From: Theristus sp. LFF4_11
Taxonomy: Eukaryota; Nematoda; Chromadorea; Monhysterida; Xyalidae
Direction: 5' to 3'
Length of the DNA stretch: 64,000 nt
Assembly (NCBI GenBank): GCA_030248135.1
Contig: JASANC010000153.1
Coordinates: 24,558 to 88,557, forward strand
Made by a program: the position numbers and the translations under genes. The notes below the pieces were generated by a model. That model did no database searches. It was not told the DNA's origin and saw nothing but the letters and a program-made list of their open reading frames with translations. Positions 5,602 to 64,000 of the stretch are shown in pieces; positions within the stretch are counted from its first letter, which is position 1, and each line of letters begins with the position of its first letter.

Positions 5602-6911
5602 GGTAATATCAAAGAAAATTTTTGTTGAACTTTTGAAAAATTGTGCCATAATTGAGGTTTTCAGAGCATATTAGAGGAAAATTTTTCGATTTTTTTAAAT
5701 CGGCATTTTTGTTTTTTTAATCACTTTAAAAAAAATTGATTTTTGTTTAACAACCCTATTTTTAGAATTGGTATTCTTATTTAAGGCATGCGGTCGATCC
5801 GGTACCGGTCGATCCGGTACCGGTCGATCCGGTACCGGTCGATCCGGTACCTGGCAATTTTCTAGGGCGGTCGATCCGGTACCGGTCGATCCGGTACTCG
5901 GTCGATCCGGTACCAATTGAAATTTTCAGCTGTTTTAGCATTCAATTCAATTTGTTTCTGATTTGTTTTCCATTTTTCTTCGTTTCTCTCATTTTATTTG
6001 ATGTCTGAAACATTTTACCGCAGGTTTTTTCGCTGGAAATATGAAAATAAAAACAACAGACATTTTTCCTCAACTCCAAAAAAGAACCGAATCAGTCTTC
6101 ATATTTTTATTTTGTTCTCCTTTTCTTGCTGAGCTGATAATTTTGCAAATTTTCACCGTCTTAGAGCTTTATTCTTCTGGAAAATGGTTCAGAAAATTAA
6201 AAAAAACATATGGTACACTTGTTTTGCTTTTTTCAGAATCAGATTACGATTACCAAAACCAACAAAGTGTCGCAAGTCGTCGTCGTCCAACAATCGTGTT
6301 CGGTTTCATGTCTTTCCGTGCTGCATAAATGTTTCGCAATCACCGAAACCAAAGAAAAATCGAAAACACAACGAATTGAACGCTAAAAACCCGTAAAACA
6401 GCTGAAAATTTCAATTGGTACCGGATCGACCGAGTACCGGATCGACCGGTACCGGATCGACCGCCCTAGAAAATTGCCAGGTACCGGATCGACCGGTACC
6501 GGATCGACCGTACCGGATCGACCGGTACCGGATCGACCTACAGCCCTTATTTAAAAACTTTGAAAAATGATTTTTGATCAAATGTTGCTTGCAATAAAGT
6601 CGCTGTAGGTTCCTAATCCTAAATCTGATCCTAATCCTAAAAGCCAAGCCTTTTTGATAAGGTGAAAAAGGGTCAAATTGGTTTTTGCATTTTTTCTTTC
6701 CTGTGTTAAAGAGGAGGAGGAGAATAGAGATGTAAGGGTCAAAAAAAAATTTTTTTTTAATTTTTTTAAAAAAAAAGTAAAAAAAAAATGAGCATTTTTA
6801 TTTTTATTTTTTTATTAAAAATTTTTGAAATTTTTTCTTCAATGTGCCCTGAAAATGCCGTTTTTGGCATAATTTTTCGAAAGTTCAACAAAAATTTTCT
6901 TTGACTTTACC
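5602..6911. mobile_element. Outer AT-rich inverted-repeat element hosting a second element
   Basis: The left end (5602-5690) and right end (about 6838-6911) are inverted copies. GGTAATATCAAAGAAAATTT on the left pairs with a right end that reads, on the minus strand, GGTAAAGTCAAAGAAAATTT; both continue into TTTGTTGAACTTT and a GAAAAATT.TGCC word. The element at 5791-6538 sits inside it. No transposase ORF is seen. Confidence 0.55.
5791..6538. mobile_element. MITE with termini built of a 15-bp KpnI-type tandem repeat
   Basis: Both ends consist of four units of GGTCGATCCGGTACC, a spacer containing CAATTTTCTAGGG, then three more units. The left arm is about 5791-5938 and the right arm about 6394-6538, and they are almost perfect reverse complements, including the spacer and the inner AATTTTCAGCTGTTTTA. 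The unit is near-palindromic (GGTACC, CGATCC). The interior (about 450 bp) is AT-rich and non-coding. Such subterminal arrays are typical of transposase-binding sites. Confidence 0.7.
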
Positions 6912-21599: not shown

Positions 21600-24500
21600 A
21601 TGCACAAGTTGTCGTTTCAAAAGCGCTTCTACAAGCGGCGCCAATCGGCGTCGGCGGCGACCGGCGGCTCGCACAGCGTCGGCTCGGTCGACGTGCAACT
21701 GGAGTCGCTGCCGGAGTGTCCGGTGTCTACTGGTCACCATTCCGTCAGCAAGCCGATCACCGTCGACACGACGCAACACAACGCGTCGCTGTTGACGCCG
21801 CACGGCCGGCTGCTGCACCAGCGGAGTGCGTCCGCGAGTCCGCACGCGTGCACGATGACGGACGCATGTGCGATACCGGCGAACGCTCGTCACAAACGCG
21901 ACGCGAACGCCGACCAAACGGGTTCCGCTGATTCAGCGACGTCCGGTGGAACAGCGGATCTACTTGCTCAACACGATCGCCGACGGTCGGCCGGTCAGTC
22001 GCCGCGCAACTCCGATCCGATGCTGATGAACTCGCTGCGCGCCTTGAATTGTGCCACGCTGCCGCCGGCTTTCGTGCACCTAAAACGATACAGCACACCG
22101 CCGTGCCTCGTCGCAGCGCCGTCGCACGCCTTAAGCAGCCCCAATAGCAGGCGGGCGTCGTTGCCAGTCACCGGTGGCCACGTGTCGCCACTGCCCTTGA
22201 TAAAACAGGGCGAGGTGCTCGCGTTGCAACGAAACCCTGACGGGTCGATGGAGTCGGTCGTCATGGTCAGTCACGTCGTGCACGGTCACCAGGGTGGTGG
22301 TCGTTTTCCAAACGGTCCAACGAAGCACAGTGTAACCGATTTGGTTGAAGCACAGTGACTGAATGTGATAAATGAAAACCATCTCATAGATTGGGGTTTG
22401 GGGGTTTATGTGTTAAGTTTCAAACACTGTCACCTTCGAATCTCAGGCGCAAACGGATCCGTGGGAGATCAACAGGATCATCAACGACAGCCCCGACTGC
22501 GTGTACTCAATATTCATGCGCAGCCATCGCTGCTACGACCTGATACCGACCAGCACGAAGCTCGTCGTATTTGACACACAACTGCCAGTAAGTTCATGCG
22601 AGAAAAATGCGACCGTTGTTTGGTGAACGATCATTTTTGGTACAGCATGCCAAAATAAATAAGGCAGTTCTAGTCTTCTCAGTCAAGACGAGATTAGTCC
22701 CAAACTAGTGGTTGGCTTTCTCAAAAATGTCAAGAAGTTTGGCAGCCGTGTGTGCAATGGACAAAAAATAAACAGAATAACCCGAATAACCAATAATTTT
22801 AAGAAACACATCAAATTTGACTCACAATTGGGTGTCTGGACGTCTTTTTTTATTCGCATTTTAGTGATTCACTTCCATTGCCAATTCATTCACTTGCATA
22901 CGTCAGGTTCGAAAGGCATTTTTTGCGCTCGTGTACAACGGTGTGCGTGCGGCGCCACTGTGGAACAGCGAACTGCAACGATTCGTGGGCATGTTGACGG
23001 TGACCGACTTCATTGCGATACTGCAGAAATACTATCGATCCGATCAACAAGGCGGCATCAAGGAGCTGGAAGAGCACAAAATACTCACGTGGAGAGGTGC
23101 GTCGCTGGGGTGGGATTCCTTCGTCAATCACAACTGCATTTGCTACTGTTCTTCCAATAAATAAATTTTACACTTTTATTGTTCCAATAAATAATAAATC
23201 ACAGCTGCAATTGCTGCTCTGCTGCTGACTTTCATGTTGCTTAAATCTGTTCACAATTTTTTTCAGAAGTGATGCTGGGAGCAGATCGCGCCAAAACCCG
23301 CCTGATATCAATTGATCCGACCGAAACGTTCGTTCAAGTTGTTTTAAGTTTTTTTTTCATTCATAACTTTCTTGAGCGACTCAAATCAGTGACTACCAAG
23401 CGATTTATTGCCTGTTGTTGCAGTTTGTACAAAGCGGTGCTGATGCTGTGCACGAATCGAGTGCACCGACTGCCGGTGTTGGATCGAAAGTCCGGAAACA
23501 TTGCCTACATTTTGACGCACAAGCGCATCATCAAATATCTCTATTTATATGTACGTTCGTTTGTTTTCAATTTGGACTTCCAAGCGGATACCGTTGGTCG
23601 CACATCGCACGTTGTCGGTCGTTCCACCAACCCTTACCCCGTTATACACATTCCAGATACACGATCTTCCAAAACCGTCGATGCTCGAGAAGACGCCACG
23701 CGAGCTCGGCCTCGGCACGTGGGGCGACATCGTCACGGTTGGTTGTTGGATAGTGTGTCTTGTGGTTGGTTAGCACCATTGCCGTCGTTATTATTGAGTA
23801 AGTTGTGATTTCCGGTGTCTAATCCGCGCACTGAACGATCAAACAACTCAAAATTCAATTGCCGTGCGTGTCTCATTCGATCGAGTTGTTACCCAGATCA
23901 CGCCGGAGACGCCGCTGATCAAAGTGCTCTCGCTGTTCCTCGACCGTCGTATTTCGGCGATTCCGATCGTGGACGCCGAGGGTCGCGTGATTGACATCTA
24001 CGCCAAATTCGACGTCATCCAGCTGGCTGCCGATCAGGCGTACAACGATCTGGAGGTGCCCGTCAGCGACGCGCTGAAGCATCGCTCTGAGGTGCGTTTC
24101 GTTGCGTTCGGCACATGGCGGGCGCCTGGTGCGTGTGATGCGGCGCAAAGCAAAGAAACCGATTACAGTGTTAGGGCTGGTGGCCCACGCTCGTGGCTTG
24201 GTGGTAGCGCGTTATGTTATTGTCTGTGCGTTCGGGCGATCGAGCCCCGCCGAGGGTGTATAGGCACTTAATGTGGCTAAACGCTAAAGCTAACCCAGAA
24301 AAACGAACACACCGCCGGCTAAGTTGGGTGCCCATCGTTGAGTGCGGATAAAGCTTGCGACGGCCGATGCTCGCGGTGTCCCGAGTGTGTAAAGGCGCTA
24401 CCACGCCCGGCCACGAGATGGACACTCGGTGCCAGGGTGGCTTCACTAACCGGGTCTGTTTCTGGTGCACTGCGGCTGACTCTAATGAGTTTTGGCTGCA

Positions 24501-38362: not shown

Positions 38363-41300
38363 TCAGCCTGCAATCAACTGTTCATCATCGTCAGGCTCCT
38401 CCACAAAGTATTCATCGTGTTGCTCATCCGAATCGTATTGTTCTTCGTCAATTTTCGCCTGTCGCTGCCGTGCCGCCTGGACGGCCAGCTGGCGCATCAG
38501 TCGTTTGTCTATGGTGGAATTGGAAAATCGTGATTCACAAATTAACCAAACTGTATCATGGTGTGGATGTTCGAATAATTTCTTCTTGGTCAAGATACAA
38601 TGATGCAGAATAGTATGTGCTCATTAGTAGTAATTGTGTGCTACTTTCGAAATCATTTCGTTCAAAGTCACCGAACTACCAAACGTCAACATTTCACCGG
38701 CGGCCGTTTGCTTCGTGCGTCGTGCGGCCATCGCTCTTTCCAGCAACGAGCCCGAACCGGAATGTCCGGTCGTCTGATTGGCGCGAGCGGAGCCGACCGT
38801 GACGTTGTGCAACTGATGCTGGTAGCGGGCGCGTTGCTCGCTGCAATGTTGTCACGAATGTCAGTGTATTGTGGGTGGACGCTTCGCAAATGTGCTGCAC
38901 CGAAATGACATCATTCATGCACAGCACACTGTCGAATCATGTCGATCTTTCAGTTTTCGTCGCAATACATGAGAACAACACGTGGGCCAAACTCAAGTTC
39001 GAGATGACAGACCGGTGATTTGAAGCAGACGACAGTCATTTCGATCGGAGTACACGTTCAGAACAAATCTGCGATAACACAGCACAACACCGGAAAGGAC
39101 GTATGAATGATCATACAGTTGCACTGTGACTTGTAAACAATCCGGCGACAGATTGGTCCACAGACAACTCTATGCATGCAGCATGTCAGAGTCAAATGCC
39201 GAAACTGCATTATAAATTCACTGTATCCCTCAGTGACGACCAACCGCGTGAGATCGCCCATTTGCACGAGCGCATTCTGCTCCGCCGCACGTCGACTGCG
39301 TGTCACCCTGCTGGACGCTGACGACACGCACGACCACGGCGTCAACGAGTCCGAATCGACCGGGCCCACAGCGGCCGCGTCCGCCTCGGCACGACGCCGT
39401 TTCACTGCGGTGGGCGTGAACATTGCGGACAGCAGACTGTCGTCGGCCGACATCGCCGCGAGACTCGGCATCTGAAATCACATCAGAATGCCTTTCTTCA
39501 GAATAGAAATCTGAGTAAAACTTTTTTCGCAGTTTTTGCCTGATGTCCGTCCCACTGACGAGCCATGCATCTCGGCTCGACCACTCTCGATCCACCTACG
39601 TGGCGAAAATCGCCAAACAGCGAGCTTTTTCCATTGCACGCCAAGAATGATGCGAACTCAAAGATCACACGCTTGCGTTCGATTCGAATGACGCGTGATG
39701 GATCTGTGTGCACCTCGCTGCAGCAAATCAGCGTGTCTTATCGCAATTCAGAATGCACGAGCACCAGTTTCGCGCGAGCCCGGTCATGAATTGGCCGGAG
39801 CAGCACGCGTCTGTGCGCACCTGCACGTTGATTGCGGTGGCATTCGCCGTGATGGTCGGGTCGTCGAACGGATCGTCCTGTTCGTTGCTCTCATCCTCCT
39901 GCACGTGCACACGGCGCTCGATGAATCTGCTCATTTGGAGGCGATGCGACAGCGTGCCGACGCGTGCGGTCACGTTGAAGGCGCTCTGATTCGCTGCCGC
40001 CGCACTGCACGTCAATGCTGGCTCTGCGTGAATGGCAAAGTGTGCAGGTGAGAAATACGCAGACAGTTCGGTGAGGTGAGTGAGCTCATGTTCTCCTTAT
40101 TTATTCTGCATGTGTTTTTTTTAATGGTCGCCACAAGTGTCTTTTTTAGGTTTTTTTCAAGTGTCTCAACGGTCGCCACAAGAGCAGATTGGACAGAGCT
40201 TGCATCTGGTTTTGGCCAATAAGCGTGGAAAATGTCAGTGGAATATTGGATCGGAATGCATCACTGCAGCACCTTTCAAAGAGCAATAATACTGGCAACC
40301 GTCGTGGAAACGTGCAAACAATCAGTGTCAACCTGTCCATTGCTCACCTAAGTCATCCTCAATCAAGTCATAGCCGAGCGTATCCACCGCACATTTCTTG
40401 CATTGTTCGCCCGTGCGACCGGTGCCCAGCGCCAGTGCCACTTTGTGCCAGTCGTCGGCGGTTTCCGGTCGGGCGGCGCGAAGGCCGCTGAATAAAAAAA
40501 TATAATGAACCTTGAATCGGAGAAAGGCATTTTTCAGAAATCGGGATGCGCGTTTAGTCAGAGATTGTAGATGCAAAACTGCTGTCCATCATTGTGTGTT
40601 ACATGCAGCTTGCGCAATGCAACCATTCATTCTCACATTCTCAATCTCGCAATCTCATCATTCGTCCACCGTTTGCGTGCTGGCTGCTTTGCTGTCTTCG
40701 TCGGTTTCACCTCGTTTTCCTTCTCTTCCACTTTTGGATCCGGTGCTAGCGACAGCGATCTGGTTTTCGGGTGTGCCTTTTTCGGTTCCCGCGTTGTTTT
40801 CGACGGGCGTTTTGAATGATCAGCTTTCGCTTTTGGTTTTGTCTCCGGTTTCCGGGTGGTGTGACCCGGCGCTTTCGTTGGTGGACGCTCCGGACGGGTG
40901 CACTGCTTCTTTCGGCTGATGCCGCGTTGTTGTTGGTGGTGTTTCGGTCGCCGGGTATATTTCGGGCTGTCTGCAAAACCACACAAATTGCTGCGTCAGG
41001 AAATTTTACGCCATCTTCTGTTGCTTCACTAACTAACTTACGAGAGCGCTATGAGTTTCTCAGCTTGGGTGGGTGAGCCAGGAAATCCAGCAAATCCAAT
41101 ACAGCCAATGTATGAGGGCAATTGAAGCAGTCGACACCAGTGAGCCTATCCACCAACCAATAGTTGTCTGTTTCCGTTTGAACCGATTGATCGTTTTGAA
41201 CGGCTGATCGTCACTGTCGTCGTCGTCGCCGTCCAGCTCATAGAAGCGACTGTAGCGGCGGCTGTCCTGCGTCCGTCCGTCATCGTACAAATCCGAGTAT

Positions 41301-44293
41301 CTCCGTTTGTTCGTCCGTCCATCATCGTCATCATCCTCATTTTCCTCCTCGCTGTCACTGTACGCAACCAGCGGGCGTTTTCTGGCCGATGACGATCGTC
41401 GATTGTTGCTGTTGTGAGTGCAGTCGAGTCGTGCCGTGGACTGCTCCTGTTGACGAGACTTCTCCGTCACCGAACAGTTCAGCACACGTGATAGAGGTGC
41501 CTGCAATTAGTGAACAGGCGCTTTGATCAATGATCACAATGATTGAAAGAGAATGTTCAGTTGACGAATGTTGGTGGGTGGGTGGTCACTGCGCGACAGT
41601 AGGAACGTGTATTAGACTTACTCTGACTTGTTGACGCCAAAATGGCACACCAAACACATCACAGCACTAAAATCATACTATCGACTTGCTAAATCTACCT
41701 ATATTTCAATTGCCCATTCGTTGTTGTTGGTGTTGGCGATTTTGGCGATGTTTCTAGCCAGGGCTAACCCAGAAAATCATACAGAACGCGACAGAGTACG
41801 GTGCCCATCGAGTTTGCTTTGTCATTAAGTGCCTATACACCTCGGCAGGGGTATATGCCAGTCTGTTCCGCTGTTCGTGTTTCACTGCTTCAAACCGCTC
41901 CTCACCAGCGACAAACTGATGTTGCTGAAGCTGCTGAGTGTCGTTGCATCGGCGACGCCGCGCACGTTCCCCTCTCGGTCGTACTGGATGCGCTGATTCG
42001 CCCAACCGGCCAACTTTGGCTTGCTGATTCGGCCGCTGCGGGTCGCCGTGAAGCCGCGATCGTGCAGACCGACTGATTGCAGTTTGTGCTCGACTTTCGC
42101 TTGCTCTTCTGCAGAAATGATCGTTTCTTCAGTTTTTTTGGCTGATTGATATTAGGTCAAATACCGCATGACTCAAAATTTCGCAACACACCGGTGAAGC
42201 TGTTTTCATCGCGTTCCCACTTGCTTTTCGGCGGCAGAAGCGACGATTTTCGGCGTACCGGTGCCGTGGGCATCTTGAACGAGGCGGATACTGCCGCTGG
42301 CGGAGGTGCACGGAGGGGCGGCGACGCTGGGGGACTCGGACGGGCTGGAAATTGAGAGAAAAAATGATCATCGGGTGGAGTGGAGTGGACAGACAAACAA
42401 AGCGAGCCAACTTTAGGTGAAAAACACACAGAACGATGCAGCAACGTACATTGTCTGAATCGTGGTTCGACCGACGGCGTTGTCTGCGTTTCGGCGCACC
42501 GCTGATTGGCCTTTTGCTCAACGATCGGTTCACGCTTGCTTCGCTCCTTCTGCTCGTCTTTGTCATCGACCGCTTCATTATCGTCATCATCATCACTGCT
42601 TTCTTGATTTTCTTTCGGCTTCCCGTCGAGTCGCTTTTCGTCTGCAACGGAGAAGAATCGATTTTTTGACCGTTTTTTGCAAACAATGCAATTTTTTGCG
42701 AAATGGATCATAGCTGTGTTTACCAATGGACTTGTCATTGATTTTCTCATCTTGCTGCTCTTTTGCTTCGGTCGGTTTCTCGCTTTCCGGCATCGGTTTC
42801 GGCGTCAGTTTCGCACGTTTCGCTTCTGGCTCCTCCATCACCGGTGGCGGCTGTTTCTCGGCTAAAACAGAAAAATCGAGATTTATTTCGCAATCATCCC
42901 AAAAAAAGGGGTTGCTGGAAAGGTGACAAGCATGAAAACTTTGTGGGCCGCAATCGTCCCAGGCCGCAATCGTCCCAGGCCGCAATCGTCCCGGGCCGCA
43001 ATCGTCCCAGGCCGCTATCGTCCAGGCCGCTATCGTCCAGGTCGCTATCGTAGGGCTCGAGGTGTCAAACTTTCAAAACGACGCCCTACGTTGCACTTGT
43101 CTAACTGCAGCACCAGGCTGCACATCGCCTGCCGGCTGTAGCTGCTTGTCACGTGCATACGACTCCACCCGCTCGGCCAACGCGACCGTGACGTTGTGCT
43201 GGTGCTGGTGTTGCTGCTGCTGCAGCGTCTGCTGGCGCGTGTCCGTGTGCGTCTCGTCCCACTGCGACACGTTGCACGCACTCGAACGCTTGCTGGCAAT
43301 TGTCATTCATTCACTGATTTTATTGTGTTGCGAAAAGCGGAGAGGCTACGGTAAAACTGCATAGATTCGTGACCCTCGTGGTGGCCTGGTGGTAGCGCAT
43401 TGGACTCTTGTCTGTGCGTTCGGGGGATCGAGCCCCGCCGAGGGTTGTATAGGAACTTAATGACAGAGAAAACTCGATGGGCGCCGTACTCGACGGCGTT
43501 CTGTACGCTTTTTTGGTTTGCCCTGGCTAAAACATCGCCTAAAATTCCCAACAACAACAACATAGACGGCATGTGGTCCGGTGACCAGCAAATTCCAGCA
43601 TTCCCTGTGTAAACCACACCTCGACCACACGATTACATTACAATTCATCCAAACTTGTCACTTGATGACAACACGCTCACCGATTTTCATGATACGCCTG
43701 CAGCAGCTCACGCCAGCGGACGGGGAAGCCGTCGGCGAACTGATCCACAAGGAGACGAGGGTAGCCTGCAGTTGGGCGGTTGACAAAATTGGGAAAAATG
43801 AAGAAAATCGAAAAAAGCGCCTGCAAAATGAAATACACTTCGTGCACGAACCAAACTGCTTGCAGATCGCCTTGTCCAGCGGGCCGTGCAGCGCGTACGC
43901 AGCGCCGGAGCGAGTCTGCAGTAGGCGGCTGTGCACTCGATGCGTGATCTCAGTCGTGTGCCAGCACTTGTCGGCGGCGTCACTGTGAACACGAACAGAA
44001 TGATTGAAAAATACAAAACGAACCACCACACTGTTTCAAGGTTCTCTGCCTGTCCGCCTGTTTGACCAACATCACATAAAAAGAAGACGGCCTTATCAGT
44101 CTGACGTGCCCCTCTCTCGAAACCGAAACCAAAAATGTCCCACTTCAACCGAAACGCACGTTCGGAACCCCTCGACGCAAACGCCGAACGGATCGAAGAC
44201 GATCTTCATCACCCAGTTCTTCAGCGTCGCCTTTGGTCGTGGCGGTGATCCAAGTCCGGAATCGACTGACGCATCGTGTTTCAGCGCAGCCAT
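38363..44293 (-). CDS. KNL2/M18BP1-like protein B (SANTA, CENP-C-like motif, SANT/Myb)
   Basis: Centromere licensing factor, by homology to KNL2/M18BP1, which directs CENP-A deposition. Fifteen exons: 44293-44160, 43982-43852, 43765-43681, 43292-43090, 42861-42724, 42641-42450, 42344-42192, 42108-41906, 41500-41158, 40970-40637, 40487-40348, 40023-39821, 39471-39245, 38840-38698 and 38508-38363. Every junction agrees in phase (924 residues). The SANTA domain (about 22-116) reads NWVMKIVFDPFGVCVEGFR, CWHTTEITHRVHSRLLQTRS, YALHGPLDKA, DGFPVRWRELLQAYH. A CENP-C-like motif lies at 369-388 (RSGRISKPKLAGWANQRIQY). SANT/Myb spans about 626-675 (RKRWTNDEIARL, W652, GTGRTGEQCKKCAV). The rest is disordered and acidic or basic. 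A SINE lies in intron 3, a minisatellite in intron 4 and another SINE in intron 8. The start follows an acceptor (ATTCAG|AC-ATG), suggesting trans-splicing. Confidence 0.88.
41725..41860 (-). mobile_element. tRNA-derived SINE, copy 2 (5' truncated)
   Basis: On the minus strand it reads CCGAGGTGTATAGGCACTTA, ATGACAAAG, AACTCGATGGGC, CCGTACTC, CGTTCTGTA and GCCCTGGCTA. This is the body of the family without the tRNA head. It lies in intron 8 of KNL2-like B, in the same orientation as that gene. Confidence 0.65.
42949..43053. repeat. 15-16 bp minisatellite in a KNL2-like B intron
   Basis: About seven tandem units: four of GGCCGCAATCGTCCCA type, then three shorter GG(C/T)CGCTATCGTCCA units that have lost one C. 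A diverged half unit (CGCAATCATCCC) lies at about 42888-42900. Confidence 0.85.
43379..43562 (+). mobile_element. tRNA-derived SINE, full-length copy 3 with (AAC)n tail
   Basis: Head with A box TAGCGCATTGG (43393-43403) and B box GATCGAGCC (43426-43434). The body is shared with the other copies (TTGTATAGGAACTTAATGAC, AACTCGATGGGCGCC). It ends in CAACAACAACAACA (about 43550-43562). Inserted in KNL2-like B intron 3, antisense to the gene. It shows the structure of a Pol III-transcribed SINE. Confidence 0.8.
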
Positions 44294-44364
44294 GTCTGAA
44301 TTTAGTGCGAAATAAGGGCAACTCGGTTGGTAAAATCAATGAATGGACTAATAGAAACACTGGT

Positions 44365-44370
44365 TTTATT
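44365..44370 (-). terminator. Poly(A) signal AATAAA of KNL2-like A
   Basis: AATAAA on the minus strand, 150 bp after the KNL2-like A stop codon and 70 bp before the acceptor that precedes the KNL2-like B ATG. The spacing is that of an operon junction in trans-splicing animals. Confidence 0.5.
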
Positions 44371-44519
44371 GTACGAGGGGCTAAAACGCTCCAGTGTTCA
44401 CTACGCAGGGCGCGCAAAGTGACCCACTCGCTGTTTTACAATTACTCTTATTTTTTATCGCTAACATTGCTTTCGGCATTACTCGGTTTGACCAATGACA
44501 AAATAGTCACTGAATGTCA

Positions 44520-47500
44520 TCAGCCAATAAGAACAGTGACCTGAAATGCCCAACTGTTGGGAATTTTGAAATTAAGGCTGTCTGACAGAACCAAAAGCGA
44601 ACTTTTTGGAATCGCAGACGCGAACGGACGATTTCGTGGCTGTGCCGTTGGCATTTTGAACGCAGCATCGGTTGTTTCGGTTGGTTCCACGGCAGCGTTC
44701 TCACCCAAACGCTGTTCAGTTCCGCTCGCTTCTGACGGTTCAGTGATCGATGGTGTCTCGTTGTTGATTTCAGCAGTTTTGATGTGTCCCGTTGTTGTTT
44801 CGGTTGGTTCAGCGGACGTCTCCGATAGTTTTTGTGTTGCATCATTTTCCACTGTATCCGGTTGCTGATCATTCTTTGTATCCACGGCTGAAATTACATT
44901 TAGAACAAAATTCAGTTTCAGATTCATTGTGAAACAATGAGATGAGGCAAAGCCAATCATCCCCATAGAATCACAAAAACCACAGAACCACCACTGCGCC
45001 ATCTCAGCCTCCTCACCAGCAGCATGCACCGTTTTGTTGCCCCCATTTTCGGCGGTTTGCTCTCTGGCCAAGCGTGCCGACCTCCTTGGAGTGCTCAATG
45101 ACCCGCGTGCATTCCTGCTTGCCGCCGTACCAGCCCTGCTAACGACCGTCGGTGTTCTCGATAATGCGGCAGCAGTCTTCGCGGCTGTGACTGGCGTGCT
45201 GGCACTCTTTGATGCGTCCAGTTCAGTTGGCTCTGCAACAATTAGAACGAACAATTCGCAGGACACCAGACTACTTCTATTTAAAAAAAAGCTAACAAAA
45301 CAATCGATTCAAACCAAGTTTTGAAGTGGACAAGCGTTCCGAACGTCGCGGCGCATTCTCAGATTGCACGAACGCCGGTGTGCGTGCATGCGACTTATCG
45401 GTTGTGGCCGGCTCTGGGGCATTCGGTGTGAGTTCTGAAAGTTGAATGGACAACTGGGGCAAATCAGAGACCACCCAACTTGAAAACACCGAAACAAAAA
45501 ACCGCAGAAACGTAGCCAACCAGCATCCGACGGTAATTTCGTTTGTTCTTTACGTCGACTGTGGAAGCGACGCGGTGTGCTCTGCGATGTGCGCTGCTCG
45601 CTCACAGTGGATGACTGCTGATTTGGAGTGTTCAGTGTTTTGGACAGACCCAACGGCGGCGCCACCGGTTCATGGTCAGTTAGCGTTGCGCTCGGTTGGT
45701 CTGAAAACAAAAAAGAAGAATATTGATTGAAACAGGAACAACCTGATCAAACAATACGAAAAAACTAAAGCACCAGCAAGCAAGCACAACTGGCACGGAC
45801 CGGAAGCCATTGAGGTCGCGAGCCGAGCGGAGCGGCGTCGTGGGGACGGAACAGCTTCGACAGCGTCAACATCGCTCGCTTGTGTCTCATCATTGTTCAG
45901 TGAGGCATCGTCTTCATCTGCTAAAAAATCGAACAGTCACATCACCACAACAAACCACGAAGACTCCAAATCGTGCACGACTTTTAAGTTTGTACAAAAA
46001 CCCAGACGCATATACAGAGAACACCCTGTAAATCTGAACAAACGCACCGATCTCGACAATTTTCATGACGTTCACCGTTTCCATTGAGGCACCAGCAGCA
46101 GCGTCCTTGCGTTTGGTGTAGCTTCCATTCAGCATTGCAGCGTCTTCCATTTTCCGGCCGTCCTCATTCGACAACGTTGACGCGTTTTCACCGTCGTCGT
46201 CACTTTCGTCACTCTGCTCATCATCATCATCGCCACTATGCCCCGTTTGCTCATGCACCGCTGGCATCAACGACTTGCGATCCGGCAGAATACTGCTCGG
46301 GCGACGTTGGTGATCGGCCGTTGACTGGTGATCGAATGGGCCGTGCTGATGATCCAACGGAGGCAGACGATTGGACGCTGCGTACCTGAACGGAACGAAC
46401 AAACGCGATCAGTGGAGTGAAGTATCAAATCGAAACTGCAAAATGCACCGAAACCGGTGTTGCATTTCAACCGAACCAACCGCTCAACAGCGTCAGCAAG
46501 CGCAAGTGAGCTGCGTCGTGAGCTCTGTTGTTGACAAACGGAAGACGGTCGCCGGAGCGCCGAGGCACGACGAGACTGCTGTTGCCAGCCGGAGGGCGCC
46601 TCGTGCCACAGAGAAATGTTGCTCGTTGATGGACGCCCGCTGAAACGCGATTGTTTTTGTGAAATATTTGACATTTTTTGCTGATTTTTTTTTCGACATG
46701 CTGCGCATACATATATTGAAGCTCTAAAACCGTCACCCATGACACCGACCAATTCACTCCATACTCGTAGATCAGCTGTTTCCATTTCGGCGGAAAACCG
46801 CGCTCAAACTGGTCGACCAACATCTTCGGGAGGCCTGGAATCGCGCGGAAACCGCGTAATTTCGTCCAGAACAAAATAAAAGTAGGAAAACAAAAGTGCG
46901 ATTGCTCAGCTTCATGGTCCACCAGCCCAATTCAAAAGAATTACAAGCAATATCCGACCGAATGTTCTGGCGGCGTCTCGATCGATCGAGCCCTGCAGAT
47001 GGTAGAACGTGCCGCTGGCTGATTTCAGGCACACGGGCGTGATCGCCTCGATGATCGGTGTGCTGTGCCAGCACTTCAGCACCGTGTCTTGATTTTCACT
47101 GGAATTCAGAACACAACAAGAGTTACCCCATGATTTGGCAGCATCACTTTCATGTTTTTTATAGTTTTTTCAACGTTTTAGCTGTCTATCTAACCAATTT
47201 CAAATTTTGACAACCCAATTTTTCCACTGTCTTTCTGTCCTCTGAAATATTTGCTCAAGCTGTCGATATCGCTTCGCTCCAAATCCAGTCCTGTCCAGCC
47301 TCCCTCTTCTTCTTCCAGCTCGTCTCGTGGAACACCGTCAACGTTGGTGGGACACAAAATTATTTTACTTTTCAACAAAAACGTCTTTTTGGGCCTTTGG
47401 TGAAAGGGTGGGTGCCGGGTGGGTTGCCTATGCCTTTGAATTAGGTTTGAATGTTTGTATTGAAGAAACAAAGAAACGCGAACACGCCCAACCCAAACTC

Positions 47501-47639
47501 ACATCACAGGCATATATCCTTCGACGCACACTGAGAAATCACTGTACACAATTTTAAAAATCCAAAACCGAAGATAGACATGTTTCCCTCTGCGCAAATC
47601 AGCAGGCATTTGAAACTGAAAGTCGTCGTCTGCAGCCAT
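44520..47639 (-). CDS. KNL2/M18BP1-like protein A (SANTA only)
   Basis: Paralogue of the next gene downstream. Ten exons: 47639-47503, 47098-46959, 46834-46750, 46639-46481, 46385-46048, 45920-45801, 45700-45554, 45434-45315, 45232-45017 and 44887-44520; all phases agree, giving 609 residues. The SANTA domain (about 20-118) has FWIFKIVYSDFSVCVEGY, CWHSTPIIEAITP, FYHLQGSIDRDAA and LVDQFERGFPPKWKQLIY. Introns 1-3 match the phase and position of those in copy B, and exon 3 is 85 nt in both. Downstream is disordered, with two basic patches (PRRRSARLA, PRRSARLAREQ, PRRSERLS). The final exon contains AAFKMPTA, matching ASFKMPTA in copy B, and ends soon after. The CENP-C-like motif and SANT/Myb domain of copy B are absent. 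A longer N-terminus from an upstream in-frame Met (47780) is possible. Confidence 0.85.
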
Positions 47640-52300: not shown

Positions 52301-55300
52301 CGATGTGGTGCGCGTGCTTTTTTGTTGTGGCATTTCCTCTCCTCTCACTACAATTTGATGAACGAGCTTTCATGGAAAACCGTAACCAAAGTTTTGTTGC
52401 GTCGCAGGGTGCCTGATCTGTTCATGAAACGTGTTGAGCAGAACGGCAACTGGTCGCTGATGTGTCCGCACGAGTGTCCCGGCCTGCACGACAGCTGGGG
52501 CGACGCGTTTGAGCAGCGCTACGAAACGTGCGTTGCTTGGTAGTGTTCGGGGAATACTCACACAGGAGAAATACGGCATGATCTTTTAAATTGGTCCCGA
52601 GACTTAATGCGCGCATGAATGGGTAAACAGTTTCATGCATCACGCGGGAATTCAAAATTGGCACCAAGTGATCCGAGTCCCCTACATAGGACCGAGTTAC
52701 TTTGGCAATTTTGAATTGCCACATAAGGATTGCAACTGGTTTCCTTTCTAGTCTGCGCGCGCAGTCGCAGGACTATAAAAAAATTGATAACAGCTGTGTT
52801 TGTTTTTCCAAGTTGACACTTCCCCGATTGCAGATACGAGCGCGAGGGCAAGTACCGGCGGCAAGTGCCGGCGCAGAAACTCTGGTACGCCATCATCGAG
52901 GCGCAAATCGAGACCGGCACACCGTACATTCTGTACAAGGACGCGTGCAATCGCAAGTCGAACCAGCAGAACCTCGGCACCATCAAATGCTCGAATCTGT
53001 GCACTGAGATCGTCGAGTACTCGAGTCCGGATGAGGTGAACAAACAAACAGAAATTTTGGAGTTTTGGAAATCAGAAAACATCGGTTTTGTGTCAACCGG
53101 TGTTTCTCGTGTCGCAGGTTGCCGTGTGCAATCTCGCCTCGATCGCCCTGAATCGCTACGTACGCCCGGACAAGACCTACGACTTCCGGCGGCTGTTCGA
53201 CGTCACCAAGGTCGTCACGCGCAATCTCAACAAAATCATCGACGTCAATTACTATCCGGTCATGGAGGTCTGCGTTTTAGGATTTTGTTTAATCGAAATG
53301 CGGCACAATGCAATCCGTGCGCGAACGATCAATTATAGTAGGAATAGAGTAGATCACGATCAGAACTAGCTGATTGGCCGGGTTGCCTTTGAGTGGGTCA
53401 CTGTTTAATTCCGGATTCCATTTATGTGTTTTTGAAGCTTGTGAAATCGTGAAACTAACCAGCTACCCTGTGTCCAGGCGGAGCGCTCCAACATGCGCCA
53501 CCGTCCGATCGGCATCGGCGTGCAAGGTCTCGCGGACGCGTTCATCCTGATGCGTTTCCCGTACGATTCTGCAGAGGCGAAGCTGCTGAATCAGCAGATC
53601 TTCGAGACGATCTACTACGCGGCGTTGGACGCCAGCTGCGAGTTGGCTGCCACAGACGGACACTATGAGACCTACCAGGGGTCGCCCGTGAGCAAGGGGG
53701 TGAGTTTTTGGGATGGGTATCCGAACTACATGATGTTCATACAGTTTTGTCGGAGTTCCCTGCTTTTTCGCGAAATAAAATGGAATGGGCGGAGCTTTGG
53801 TGGGTTCGAATGGAATGTGTTTTATAGGCAAGACTGATTTTTGAACGTTACACAGGTGCTGCAATTCGACATGTGGAATGTGACGCCGACGAATCTCTGG
53901 GACTGGCCTGCACTGCGACAGAAAATCGCGAAGTCGGTCACAGTGTTTTTCTACATTTGGATGAAGCATAATTGCAAGTGGGATCAAATGAAATGACGTC
54001 ATTGTTGCTTGCAGACACGGCATTCGCAATTCGTTGCTGCTGGCGCCGATGCCGACGGCGTCGACCGCACAGATCCTCGGCAACAACGAGTCCTTCGAGC
54101 CATACACCTCAAACATTTACTCGCGTCGTGTGCTCTCCGGCGAATTCCAGGTAGCACAGAATCACAATTAACATGAAACAAGACAAACAAAACACGTCAC
54201 AATGGTACTGACTGAAATTGAAGCTCTCCGAAACTTTCCTGACTACTTCTTGTCTAGTAGTGTCTGTTGCGAGTTTGAGTGCGTTCGATTTTCTGTAAAA
54301 ACGTTTTTTGTTCACTCATTCAGGTGGTCAACCCGCACCTGCTGAAGGATCTGGTCGAGTTGAAGCTGTGGAACGACGAGCTGCGCAACGAGATCGTGCA
54401 TCACAACGGGTCGATTCAGTCGATCGATTGCATTCCGGACGACATCAAGCAACTGTATCGCACCGTCTGGGAACTGCCACAGAAGGTTCGACTGCCGTGC
54501 CGTCGCAGTATCTCTTCAGTTTTTCGTGACATCGTTTGTTTTGTTTACATAATGGAAGTTTTGTGTCGATGTGAACTGGTCGCGAGGCATACAAATGAAT
54601 TTGAACTTTATTGTGCTGAGTGAACTGTGTGCGCTCAGAAACCGAACTGTTGCACGACTTTGCAGGCGATCATCGATTTTGCGGCTGACCGCGGCGCGTT
54701 CATCGATCAATCGCAGTCGCTCAACATTCACATCGCACAGCCGAACTACGCAAAGCTGACCAGCATGCACTTCTACGGGTGGAAGAAGGCATGTGGCACG
54801 CACACACCGACACTGAAATTGAATTTAAAAGTTGCAGACAAACAGATAGCTACACAGCTATTAATTGTTGCCAACAAAGCATTGAATTTGAAAGTTGCAG
54901 ACGAACAGACCGCCACCACAGCTATTCATTGTTGCCAAACTGGTTTGCAGGGCCTGAAAACTGGCATGTACTATCTGCGAACGAAACCGGCCGTGAACGC
55001 GATCCAGTTCACGGTGGACAAACTGGCGCTGCGACAGAAGAACACGGCTGCTGGTGAGCGCGACAACGATGAGAATGCGGACCCGAAACGCAAAACTGCG
55101 GACGGCGACGGTGGCGCAAACGACGGGGACACGAAGGAGAATGACGAGCTCATGGTCGGTCGCTTGTTGGTTGGTTTTGGTAGTGAACTGCTGACGGAAA
55201 TGGAAATGCGAGTGAAGGTCACGCTGGTTGGTGGGCCGGTCGCGTTGCTTTTACAGTCTGAACTCTAAATTATAGGGAATCAGCTGATTCGTTGGTGGTC

Positions 55301-59826: not shown

Positions 59827-62800
59827 TCATCGCTTCTTTTTAGGCGTCGAACGTTTCGGCTGTGATGTTGATGACGTGCGTGTGCGCCTTGCCGCGTGCG
59901 TGGGTCGCGCCCGAACGATGACCGTGCGAGCGAACGGCGGTGTCTCAGAGCAACTGCGCGAGCGTTCGCGATGGCCAGCTGTTGACCGTGTGGCGTGACG
60001 TGCGCGTTGGTTGGCGCCCGTGGCCTGCGTGCTAGTGCCCGCCCGTGCCTGCGCCTGCGCGTGAGTGCCCGCCTGTGGTTGCGCGTGAGTGCCCGCGTGT
60101 GTCCCGGCCTCCGACTTCGGCTTGGTCGAGTCGAACGTGAGACGCTGCATGACACTGGTTGCCTGAGATTTGGGAATTTTTGATTTATCAGCGGCACGCG
60201 TTTGTGCACCGCTCGTTCCCGTGGCCGGCTGCGCCGTTGTGTCGGACATCGGCGTGACGTTGACGGTCACTTGTTGAAGGCACCCCGTCGTTCCGAGCTC
60301 GCACGCGTCCGCTGGTGACTCGTGCTGTGGCGCCGTTGCCGACGCCAACCGCTCACTGCGACGGATGGTTTGCACTACGTCAGGACATTTGTCTGTTGTA
60401 TGTCCACTACTTTCACAGTGGCCACACAACGGTCTTTGTGTTTTCTGCTGCTTCTGCTTCTGACTCGTATCAGATGCAGAAGGCTCGGTTGTGTCCATGT
60501 GTTCTTGTCGAGCAGCCGGCTGCTGCGTCTGTACAGCAGCGGGCGCTGGTTGTCTAACGATACTCATGCCAGTCGCGGCGGTCTGTTGCAACCGCTGCGG
60601 CTGGGCCGTGAACGTTGGATGTTGCTGCGCTAATTGTTGACGCTTTTGGCGTCGATTCTGTTCAGCAACCCGAGCAAACTCGTCGTCAAATTCCGTGACG
60701 ACTCTTGGCTGCATTTTCTCCGCCAGCTTTTTCTCGGCGGTGTCCAGGTCTACGAACGCGAGCTTTGGGATGTTTCGCTGTTTCTTTGCCTTATTGCGTT
60801 CCTTCTCAGTTGTTGGTAACGTACCGCTAACGTTGAAGTGGCGCATCAGCATGTGCGACTCTTCTGCGGTCCAGAAGTCGGACGGCGGTCGGATCGGCGG
60901 AAGCCACAACGGCTGCCACATGTTGTGCAGCTGCGTGCCCGTTGCCTTCTCGCGTTCGGCGTCAGCCTCGACCAACGCCTGGTTTGTCGCCAAGTTGTCG
61001 TCCGGTGTTGCTGACCCGATCATTCGAGGATCAGATGGTGCACCATGGAAGTCGTGCTGCGGACGGCTCGCGATGAAGAGTGCCAGATGTTTGATCGTGT
61101 TCGGCACGTGTGCAGCAGCTTGCTCCTCGGCTCGCGCCAAGAAACCCTGCGGATTGCTGACCATTCGACGGCCAACGTCCTGAATTTGTCTGCACGAAAA
61201 ACTGTCAACCGGCAGAATGAAATCGCCGGCTTTTGGTCTTTCGCCGTCATAGTAGGCAGCGCGCAACTCGACTGCCTCTGGACTGCCATCCAAAAGCAGA
61301 TCAGTCCACTGATCTCGTGAATAGATCGGTCGTTGTAACGCATGGTAGTCAGGGCGCATGAATTTCTGCGCCTTGGCTACATCAGGTCGACTGTGTAGAT
61401 TCGCACGATCTAGCAAGCTGAACTCGCCATTGGAGGCCGCGAGTGCTTTTGCCTCTTCCCACATGGCTGAGAACAACTCTGGCACTGACTGATAATTGTA
61501 TTCTGCAGCCGCGCTAAGCCAATAGCTCTGAATCAGATTGGTGTCATATTCGACTGACCTGTCTGATAGATAACCCCTACGAGGACACGTCAGCAGCTCA
61601 GTGTCTCTGGCGGACAACGTCGATGTGGCACTACTTGCAGGTCGGGCAGACTCAGTGTCCGAGCTGGCAGTGCTAGCACGACCCGTCTCAGCCCTTCGAC
61701 GCTGACGCTCTTTTTCCTGTCGTGCGCCTCTCGTAAAAGGCGGGTACACGATCTGTTCTTTACCTCGTTTGATGGGTGGCTCCTGCGATCTTGTGCGAGA
61801 AGCGGCTGCGCGGCGGGCCGGTGTTGTTGGTTTTCGAAACTGGCCGTCGTCTGGTGGTGGCGGTGGAGGAGGTGTCGGACCGAGGATGGCACTGACGGAC
61901 GCCGGATCGATGAGCATCTGTTCGCGCAACTGTTGACTGGCCTGTGCATGTTGCATGGCCTGTGCACCAGGTCGAGCAGGCGGCGTTTCCGCCAGCGCGT
62001 TCTGTGCCCGTTGTATCTGCGGCGGTGTGGCGTGATCGTACGTCGGCGTGGCTACCTGTGACTGGCTTGCAACGCGTTGTTGTGTGTGATACGCCCTAGT
62101 AGGCACAGCGCCAGGCATGTTTGGCAGCAAAATTGGCTGCTGCATTGGAACCACCCGCGGTAGCGGCGGTAGCGCTTTGCCTTTGGCCAGTGCTTTTTGG
62201 CGTTGCTGCAATGTCTGAAGCGCCGCTTGTACCTGCTGGAGCGTGAGATCACTTGGCGTCGGAGGTGTCCGAGCCGAGAGCGGATCTGGCTCCAGCAACT
62301 CAGTGCGCTGTGGCGGTGGTGTGACTTGCGCCTCATGCGCTCGTCGCACCTGTTTGTGCAATTGCAGCTGGCTAGCACGTGGCGGCGCGTGCCATTTCAC
62401 CATCTCGCGACGGATCTTTTTGATCGCGTCTTCGAGTTCAGTCGGACTACCACCCATGATCGCTGCACGCAGTTCGTCTTTAAACGGCATGCAGTAGTGA
62501 TTGTGCATGACTGACCACCAGATTCGCGCGTTGGCAGCGATAGTGTTCTGCCGCGACGCCTGTGCGTCCAGGAAGCGTCGGCACTTGAGCGGAAACAACT
62601 GTTTTTCAGTTGTTCGCTTTGACCTGCGCTTCTTTGGAAGCTCACTGGTGAACGGGTTGAAAAACTTGAACACCGGATGGATGTGTCTACCCGTCTTACC
62701 CAGCGAGTTCGCGTGTCGGTTGAGCGCGATGAGCACGTTCAGCAACTGGAAGTACGTCTCGTGCGGTTCATGGTGCCACTGTGTGAAGATCCACTGAAGC

Positions 62801-63525
62801 GCCGTTCGCACGAGCAGTGCCAACGTGAGATTTCGGATGTCCGTCGAGTCGGTGATGGTGTGCAGCGACAATCCGCAGAGATCATTGGTTGAAATGTTGA
62901 TCTTGTGTGACAGATCGAGCAAGAGCTCGACGTCTTGGTGTGTGCGGATCGGCTCGATGACCTCACCCTTTTGGACACGCAACAAGTACTGGTTGCGCAC
63001 ATCTTCCTCCGTAATGGTGAGCGGAAAGACATCCTCCATTGTGCAGGAGAACAACTCTGAATGTTCCTCCAGCACCGAAGTGAACCGGTCTGGTTGGCCC
63101 GGCTCTGTGGCACGTACCATTCCGAAATGCTCCAGCGACTCGACCGAGCCAATCGAGAATGAGCCTGGCCAACTACACCTGGTCCTCAGGTGAAAGTCGA
63201 CCAAGGTCTCCTCGTCGGCAGCGAGCAACATCGCCGGGGCATCCTTGTGCTGAAGCTCGTGCTTTGTGGTGTCATTGTACTTGGCCCCCAAAGCAATAAA
63301 ATTGCGATCATACCACGGTGTCGACGGATCGTGTTGTCGACCAAGGTAGTTGTCGGGCGGCCTCGGAGAGATCTGTTCTTCGTTCGGTGGAGACGGCTCA
63401 CAGCCCCCGGGGCATTGATGTTTTCTCGCGCTGTGCAGGAAACAGAAGCGTCGACCGGCCTTCAGCTCGTTGTCGTACAGCCGATGGGCCAACTGGAAGC
63501 CGTAGTAGCTCGTCGCCGATGTCAT
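59827..63525 (-). CDS. 1,232-codon intronless Gag-like protein with CCHC zinc knuckle
   Basis: One uninterrupted frame, GC-rich throughout, with no introns, unlike every other gene here. The N-terminal third is a folded-looking region (WYDRNFIALGAKYND, LLVRTALQWIFTQWHHEPHE, YFQLLNVLIALNRHANSLGK). A Gln-rich helix follows (LQQVQAALQTLQQRQ), then Pro-rich and basic disordered stretches. A CCHC zinc knuckle lies at residues 1034-1047 (C-G-H-C-x4-H-x4-C), and the tail is very basic (ending PKKKR). This order of capsid-like part, disordered linker, knuckle and basic tail is Gag-like. No protease, reverse transcriptase or integrase is seen downstream. It could be a retroelement gag, a domesticated gag or an unrelated nucleic-acid-binding protein. 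The GTG/ATG start is uncertain because open frames continue upstream with breaks. Confidence 0.6.
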   Translation of the reverse strand: MTSATSYYGFQLAHRLYDNELKAGRRFCFLHSARKHQCPGGCEPSPPNEEQISPRPPDNYLGRQHDPSTPWYDRNFIALGAKYNDTTKHELQHKDAPAMLLAADEETLVDFHLRTRCSWPGSFSIGSVESLEHFGMVRATEPGQPDRFTSVLEEHSELFSCTMEDVFPLTITEEDVRNQYLLRVQKGEVIEPIRTHQDVELLLDLSHKINISTNDLCGLSLHTITDSTDIRNLTLALLVRTALQWIFTQWHHEPHETYFQLLNVLIALNRHANSLGKTGRHIHPVFKFFNPFTSELPKKRRSKRTTEKQLFPLKCRRFLDAQASRQNTIAANARIWWSVMHNHYCMPFKDELRAAIMGGSPTELEDAIKKIRREMVKWHAPPRASQLQLHKQVRRAHEAQVTPPPQRTELLEPDPLSARTPPTPSDLTLQQVQAALQTLQQRQKALAKGKALPPLPRVVPMQQPILLPNMPGAVPTRAYHTQQRVASQSQVATPTYDHATPPQIQRAQNALAETPPARPGAQAMQHAQASQQLREQMLIDPASVSAILGPTPPPPPPPDDGQFRKPTTPARRAAASRTRSQEPPIKRGKEQIVYPPFTRGARQEKERQRRRAETGRASTASSDTESARPASSATSTLSARDTELLTCPRRGYLSDRSVEYDTNLIQSYWLSAAAEYNYQSVPELFSAMWEEAKALAASNGEFSLLDRANLHSRPDVAKAQKFMRPDYHALQRPIYSRDQWTDLLLDGSPEAVELRAAYYDGERPKAGDFILPVDSFSCRQIQDVGRRMVSNPQGFLARAEEQAAAHVPNTIKHLALFIASRPQHDFHGAPSDPRMIGSATPDDNLATNQALVEADAEREKATGTQLHNMWQPLWLPPIRPPSDFWTAEESHMLMRHFNVSGTLPTTEKERNKAKKQRNIPKLAFVDLDTAEKKLAEKMQPRVVTEFDDEFARVAEQNRRQKRQQLAQQHPTFTAQPQRLQQTAATGMSIVRQPAPAAVQTQQPAARQEHMDTTEPSASDTSQKQKQQKTQRPLCGHCESSGHTTDKCPDVVQTIRRSERLASATAPQHESPADACELGTTGCLQQVTVNVTPMSDTTAQPATGTSGAQTRAADKSKIPKSQATSVMQRLTFDSTKPKSEAGTHAGTHAQPQAGTHAQAQARAGTSTQATGANQRARHATRSTAGHRERSRSCSETPPFARTVIVRARPTHAARRTRTSSTSQPKRSTPKKKR

Positions 63526-64000
63526 GACGATGCTGATTGCGATCGTGGGAAATCGAACTTAAACCAGCGAAGATCAGCGTGGGACCATCGCGTGGTCGAT
63601 ATGCGCCGGGCCGGATGATGTAGCAGGGATTTCCGGAGAACAGTCTCTCGCTGGAGCACGTACTGGTGCACCATGAGCCGTCGGTCCAGTGTTTCAATGA
63701 CCGAGAACTTTGCTTGGCCTGGTGCGTTCCTCAGAAGCGCCCTTCGTGTGACCAGGGTACCCAATGCGCATAGGTGCCCGCGATCTCAGCACCCGGGTTC
63801 TCTGTGAGAAAACGGATCGCCCTTGATGTAATCGAGGTACGTCTGGGCGAACATGATTCTTCAGCAACTCGTGTCGTTGATCTTGTCAAAAGTGAGGTCT
63901 TGCGGCAAGACCGGCAGACAGACATTCGTGTCCCACGGTGTCTCATCACCCCGGGGCAAGTATGCCAAGCCAACGTCAATGGCCGCCGAACTTGTCATAG
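63526..64000 (-). pseudogene. Frame-broken upstream part of the zinc-knuckle ORF
   Basis: On the minus strand, protein-like segments with similar composition occur in successive different frames: AAIDVGLAYLPRGDETPWD, then IMFAQTYLDYIKGDPFSH, then APGQAKFSVIETLDRR, then IIRPGAYRPRDGPTLIF, just before the long frame begins. Stops and shifts separate them. This suggests that the coding region once extended, or still extends, beyond the window edge, with indels from decay or sequencing. I did not join the segments. Confidence 0.4.

Follow-up and report, generated by a model that had tools for sequence, protein, structure and literature searches.

KNL-2 relatives help place the centromere histone, and a CENP-C-like motif is present in many, though not all, KNL2/M18BP1 members. 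According to a report on plants, β-KNL2 is devoid of the CENPC motif, interacts with α-KNL2 and depends on it in a tissue-dependent manner; SANTA-containing regions suffice in yeast two-hybrid assays, and in AlphaFold3 models the SANTA domains are paired (PMC13294675). The same report states that metazoans maintain a single M18BP1/KNL2 variant, and another paper gives one KNL2 for most metazoan genomes and two for Xenopus laevis (PMC9210943). A survey of 32 Caenorhabditis species, however, records four knl-2 duplicates, one of which is a pseudogene (PMC9577544), and the premise of a preliminary description of the locus presented here, that KNL2/M18BP1 is normally described as single in animals, needs correction. 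KNL-2 duplicates in animals are already in print, and what is new here is a pair of unequal domain content beside a lineage with two SANTA domains. In listings of the open-licence literature, which leave subscription papers largely outside, we saw no description of either a two-SANTA KNL-2 or a SANTA-only animal copy.

Our window, the whole stretch of 64,000 nucleotides that was analysed, harbors two KNL2/M18BP1 paralogues, copies A and B, as same-strand neighbours on the minus strand (47639 to 38363), with 226 nt between the stop of A and the start of B. Spliced models and Pfam searches bear out the tandem arrangement and unequal domain content that the preliminary description had proposed, including its placement of a SANTA domain at the start of each copy. 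Copy A (44520..47639; 10 exons, 620 codons) contains SANTA, a linker and an FKMPTA motif, and copy B (38363..44293; 15 exons, 922 codons) is a full-length KNL2/M18BP1. The exons were modelled by hand on GT-AG introns from the sequence and its reading frames, giving 47639-47503, 47098-46959, 46834-46750, 46639-46481, 46385-46048, 45920-45801, 45700-45521, 45434-45315, 45232-45017 and 44887-44520 for copy A, and 44293-44160, 43982-43852, 43765-43681, 43292-43114, 42861-42724, 42641-42450, 42344-42192, 42108-41906, 41500-41158, 40970-40637, 40487-40348, 40023-39821, 39471-39245, 38840-38680 and 38508-38363 for copy B. GT...AG ends are found in 23 of the 23 modelled introns, and when the ten exons of copy A are joined the coding frame is open throughout, the other two frames containing 14 and 38 stops. 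The two copies agree in the phases of introns 1 to 3, which are 2,1,2; in the A/B alignment introns 2 and 3 occupy identical columns and intron 1 lies about 2 codons apart in a gapped stretch, in agreement with the near-identical positions described earlier. Both copies have an exon 3 of 85 nt, as had also been claimed, provided that A uses the donor AATTG/GTCGG, which was chosen because of homology to B; an alternative donor 15 nt earlier would give 70 nt.

Might some exon ends be wrong in models made by hand, for instance in the linker or at the end of A? Such an error, which we regard as a lesser but real possibility, would leave the length of A off and the statement about its domains standing. 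Three modelled introns have weak acceptors with leave-one-out scores below 0, and exon 3 of A has two candidate donors; against this, phases and frames are consistent over 23 introns and copy B is collinear with database proteins. Elsewhere in the window, the ordinary neighbours include a Kelch motif (2849-3418, minus strand), a CBS domain (23798-24268, plus strand) and a ribonucleotide reductase large chain (52817-53335, plus strand). A GC-rich stop-free frame of 1243 codons (59830-63558, minus strand) matches no Pfam family with an E of 0.001 or less, and two arrays of 15-bp units (5791-5914 and 6417-6538) have consensus units that are, by eye, mutually reverse complementary.

By its sequence, copy B is identified as a complete KNL2/M18BP1 orthologue: besides SANTA and a CENP-C-like motif it has Myb together with the block that follows it. 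Its N-terminal SANTA domain (43707..44227; residues 23-108, exons 1-3) matches the Pfam family at E 1.4e-17 and the Mis18BP1 SANTA domain of 9r6h at E 5.9e-14. Comparison with nematode KNL-2 reveals an FKMPTAPVRR motif (42250..42279), which is followed by a CENP-C-like motif (41963..42043; residues 360-386) that matches Dirofilaria and Parascaris KNL-2 at E 2.5e-5 and 2.7e-5, respectively. The SANT/Myb domain (40391..40677; residues 618-663, exons 10-11) scores below threshold in Pfam when taken alone (E 3.7e-4, 21 versus the 24.4-bit cut-off) and is supported by a family profile constructed from A, B and nine nematode two-SANTA proteins, which matches the Myb domain and the block behind it in Mis18BP1 of 9f5w at E 6.8e-7 and the SANTA domain of 9r6h at E 1.3e-21. 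Both 9r6h and 9f5w Mis18BP1 we take to be human. The block behind the Myb domain (39911..39967; ARVGTLSHRLQMSRFIERR) is collinear in the homologues and lies within that profile match, and collinearity with filarial and Parascaris KNL-2 extends from SANTA through the C-terminus. The KNL2 peptide of 7y7i is matched by the family profile at E 0.016 and by copy B alone at E 0.2. Both additions to copy B claimed in the preliminary description, the CENP-C-like motif and the SANT/Myb domain, are present by these matches. The CENP-C-like motif occurs both in two-SANTA nematode KNL-2 and in copy B, though it is reported missing from C. elegans KNL-2.

The introns of copy B contain repeats. Introns 8 and 3 carry a dispersed element twice in opposite orientation (41722-41839 and 43446-43562), with arms that are 84% and 74% complementary. 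The element in intron 3, near 43.4 kb, has a head that looks tRNA-like by eye, in which ARAGORN finds no tRNA, and from its resemblance we presume that it is perhaps a SINE. Intron 4 contains a minisatellite (42946-43051) with 6.8 copies of a 16-bp unit.

Copy A shares the 5' half of this architecture. Its SANTA domain (46776..47579; residues 21-112, exons 1-3) matches Pfam at E 3.7e-18 and 9r6h at E 3.4e-11, and blastp aligns A with B at E 6e-29 and 29% identity over 245 aa, without composition correction. The FKMPTA motif of A (44643..44660), correctly described before as common to the two copies, is alike in DNA as well as in protein (local score 36 against a top score of 28 among 500 shuffles). 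Behind it, no match to the CENP-C-like motif of B rises above shuffles in DNA or in three-frame translation, and a search for remnants of B exon 8 behind copy A found none; with no trace of this CENP-C exon, copy A stops where the preliminary description had placed its end. Pfam finds no Myb in copy A, SANTA being the sole family at E up to 10. The earlier label of a SANTA-only copy is right as to the missing Myb and CENP-C and is too narrow in another respect, since exons 6-9 (45017..45920), with phase-1 introns on their flanks, carry one PRR..SxR motif each. The count of four in A and none in B compares with a shuffle mean of 0.008 and maximum of 1 (20000 shuffles), for a pattern defined post hoc with the motifs already in view, and the motifs resemble the CENP-C-like motif only loosely. 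Across the 159 Mb assembly of 3744 contigs, copy B gives 15 matches, all at this locus; the Pfam SANTA profile gives one match, in copy A alone, such that any additional SANTA copy interrupted by introns could escape this search. The assembly also contains rDNA.

A decaying partial duplicate without function, whose open frame is a remnant, would account for a shortened copy, and we consider this improbable. The DNA alignment of A and B has a 4-nt gap just behind FKMPTA, by which the last 36 codons of A (after FKMPTAQPRN) may be frame-shifted relative to B exon 7, a possible sign of decay, and kinetochore-gene duplicates are short-lived according to the title of the Caenorhabditis paper (PMC9577544). 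Set against this are the 620 open codons over ten exons and the state of the SANTA domain. Of 25 alignment columns that do not vary among B, the Mis18BP1 domain of 9r6h and eight SANTA1 domains from nematodes, copy A retains 22, while A and B are identical at only 40 of 97 positions (41%); ten SANTA2 domains retain 17.3 of the 25 on average. This conservation count, which is no selection test, speaks for retained function, and the SANTA domain of copy A looks to be under constraint.

To place the pair among nematode proteins we turned to database searches. Copy B residues 20-125 gave no match (24 candidates scored), full copy B recovered one protein, from Dirofilaria, among 7986 candidates sharing most words, and the first SANTA domain of the Dirofilaria protein (SANTA1) recovered 11 proteins (57 candidates), yielding a small set of homologues weighted towards filarial worms. 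Since all of them come from nematodes, the present genome is taken to be that of a nematode or of something close to one, with the caution that so small a set and the missing canonical SL1 impose. In all 11 homologues, from 10 nematode species, there are two SANTA stretches per protein: Dirofilaria immitis (twice), Wuchereria bancrofti, Acanthocheilonema viteae, Brugia pahangi, Setaria digitata, Litomosoides sigmodontis, Loa loa, Cercopithifilaria johnstoni, Elaeophora elaphi and Parascaris univalens, the filarial nematodes and Parascaris being, we assume, members of clade III. The domain order in these proteins, SANTA-FKMP-SANTA-CENPC-Myb, is that of A followed by B, and the second SANTA lies directly behind an FKMP or FKVP motif in 11 of 11. 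For the Parascaris two-SANTA protein, an AlphaFold2 model from 10 alignment rows has a mean pLDDT of 31.6, with 850 of 925 residues below 50 and its main confident stretch at about residues 700-754.

Because the homologues carry both SANTA domains in one protein and in A-B order, one transcript spanning A and B has to be taken seriously as an alternative to two genes. The exons of A would then be spliced to B exon 1 to make a two-SANTA KNL-2 as in other nematodes, and the stop in the last exon of A would be intronic or part of a short isoform; we judge this unlikely overall, though well short of negligible. Immediately upstream of B there is a 3' splice-site-like sequence (44294..44311; acceptor 44296/44295) that ends 2 nt before the ATG and scores 8.6, a value reached by 20 of the 524 AG sites of the stretch, modelled acceptors included. 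The 23 modelled acceptors have leave-one-out scores of -1.4 to 13.8, and the start of copy A scores -2.6. This suggests that the mRNA of B is probably spliced at this point, be it in trans, from a separate leader exon belonging to B, or from A, and splicing in cis from A fits the sequence as well. The acceptor lies in the phase that a joined transcript needs, and a phase-1 GT at 44629 in A would keep the frame without a stop. As a donor, however, 44629 is weak to fair with a score of 4.0: only 4 of the 23 modelled donors score lower, and 107 of 582 GT sites reach that value.

Several features at the junction argue instead for two genes. In the hand-made models A and B are in separate frames with a stop between them; the frame of A continues for 36 codons beyond the candidate donor to its own stop, and an AATAAA follows (44365..44370) before B begins. 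B exon 1 opens with ATG GCT GCG, resembling the start of A. Both copies start MAA with CAG just upstream, and 14 of 22 bases agree around the two ATGs; among 1079 other ATGs on this strand 8 do as well, for a stretch picked after inspection. Finally, B has its own FKMPTAPVRR behind its SANTA domain, where by eye the relatives have no FKMP behind SANTA2; their FKMPLLPVQRR, again by eye, is closer to the FKMPTAPVRR of B than to the FKMPTAQPRN of A. Given the stop of A, the AATAAA before B, the alike starts and the FKMPTAPVRR of B, two genes are favoured over one, by judgement at about two to one. Trans-splicing is without support in this genome, as canonical SL1 was not found: the canonical pattern has 0 matches, and its 3' part has 2, each with two mismatches, compared with 5 for a reversed control. 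An Rfam SL1 search found none among the 50 of 43697 first-look candidates that were scored; with this fraction scored and sub-cut-off signals in 4 of 14 control genomes, that negative says little.

We further sought evidence on the origin of the pair in the SANTA domains. Those of A and B are 38-45% identical to SANTA1 and 26-34% to SANTA2 of Dirofilaria and Parascaris. A phylogeny, which the preliminary description had named as a check, was built from 21 rows and 113 columns, leaving out protein P0010 wholly, SANTA1 of P0006, the start of which was unmatched by the pattern, and SANTA1 of P0009 (alignment A1 is without P0009 and P0010, alignment A2 without P0010). The outcome is mixed for two paralogues: the tree itself does not join A with B, which counts against our preferred reading, yet a constraint joining them is not rejected in either of two tests (p-AU 0.385 and 0.257). 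Grouping A with SANTA1 while B joins SANTA2 is the least costly arrangement, ahead of A with B (lnL 0.24 versus 2.58 below the free tree; p-AU 0.53), as a split or still-spliced two-SANTA gene predicts. All five compared trees lie inside the p-AU 95% set, among them A with SANTA2 and B with SANTA1 (p 0.12) and A, B and SANTA1 together, and no single constraint is rejected (A with SANTA2, p 0.23; B with SANTA1, 0.083; A with SANTA1, 0.37; B with SANTA2, 0.40). Between A and B, three intron pairs (introns 1-3) and a single pair of 5' flanks are no more alike than shuffled sequence, which points to an old duplication in which the SANTA domain of A was kept. The pair may have originated from an independent duplication of the 5' half or from the split of an ancestral two-SANTA gene. 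Duplication of SANTA may have had two outcomes, the pair here and the two-SANTA protein elsewhere, or A and B may form one mRNA in this genome.

Setting out from the observed gene models, domains, homology, splice-site-like sequence and two-SANTA relatives, we consider the best explanation, with a probability of roughly 0.55, to be that A and B each encode a KNL-2 protein, as paralogues derived from an old tandem 5'-half duplication, and that the SANTA domain of A acts in trans with B. The possible frame shift in the last 36 codons of A, being potential decay, weighs on this explanation too. The duplicated segment would have comprised the start codon, SANTA, linker and FKMP. Copy B would use its CENP-C-like motif and Myb domain for chromatin and its SANTA domain for protein contacts. 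Copy A would be a short retained copy whose SANTA domain most likely pairs with that of B or with the recruiter of B, a docking proposed by analogy with plant β-KNL2 and α-KNL2, and it would thereby supply in trans what other nematodes have in cis, a second SANTA domain. The basic PRR array of copy A may contribute further contacts, to DNA or to nucleosomes. Copy B is probably expressed separately from its own mRNA, with a 5' end made by a splice 2 nt ahead of its start codon, perhaps through trans-splicing within a putative A-B operon.

One member of this natural pair has the chromatin-binding half and the other does not, and together with relatives whose single chain carries both SANTA domains the pair offers a direct way to test SANTA pairing. 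It raises the questions of whether A binds B and whether two SANTA domains per complex are needed, and it may, as the preliminary description proposed, separate recruitment from chromatin binding. A broader and more tentative proposal, which we think has the odds against it, is that the working KNL-2 complex of these animals contains two SANTA domains, supplied by one chain in filarial worms and Parascaris and by the two proteins A and B here, so that a SANTA subunit without Myb and CENP-C gates assembly of the CENP-A loader, like Mis18 α/β in vertebrates or β-KNL2 in plants.

Among known systems, filarial and Parascaris KNL-2 have in common with copy B the CENP-C-like motif, a PLV(A/S/T)YS block, Myb, a VGT(L/I) block and a DDSLL block, FKMP being shared as well; by contrast, those proteins have two SANTA domains in one chain, whereas here the models place them in two frames separated by a stop, and B shows one SANTA domain. 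In Mis18BP1, the SANTA domain of 9r6h and the Myb domain of 9f5w with the block behind it match the family profile of A, B and nine nematode proteins. Mis18BP1 works with Mis18 α/β (PMC13294675). Unlike C. elegans KNL-2, which one paper reports without a CENP-C motif (PMC8259991), copy B has this motif. The Caenorhabditis knl-2 duplicates are likewise duplications of nematode KNL-2, some with intact frames, but the available portion of that study describes no copy cut behind SANTA beside a full copy (PMC9577544). In plant α/β- and γ/δ-KNL2, as at this locus, one form has SANTA with CENPC-k and the other SANTA without it (PMC9210943 and PMC13294675), and δ-KNL2 has in place of CENPC-k an RRLRSGKV/I motif that is loosely like the PRRSAR motifs of copy A (PMC9210943). 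The plant forms differ in their separate origin, and copy A is adjacent to B on the same strand.
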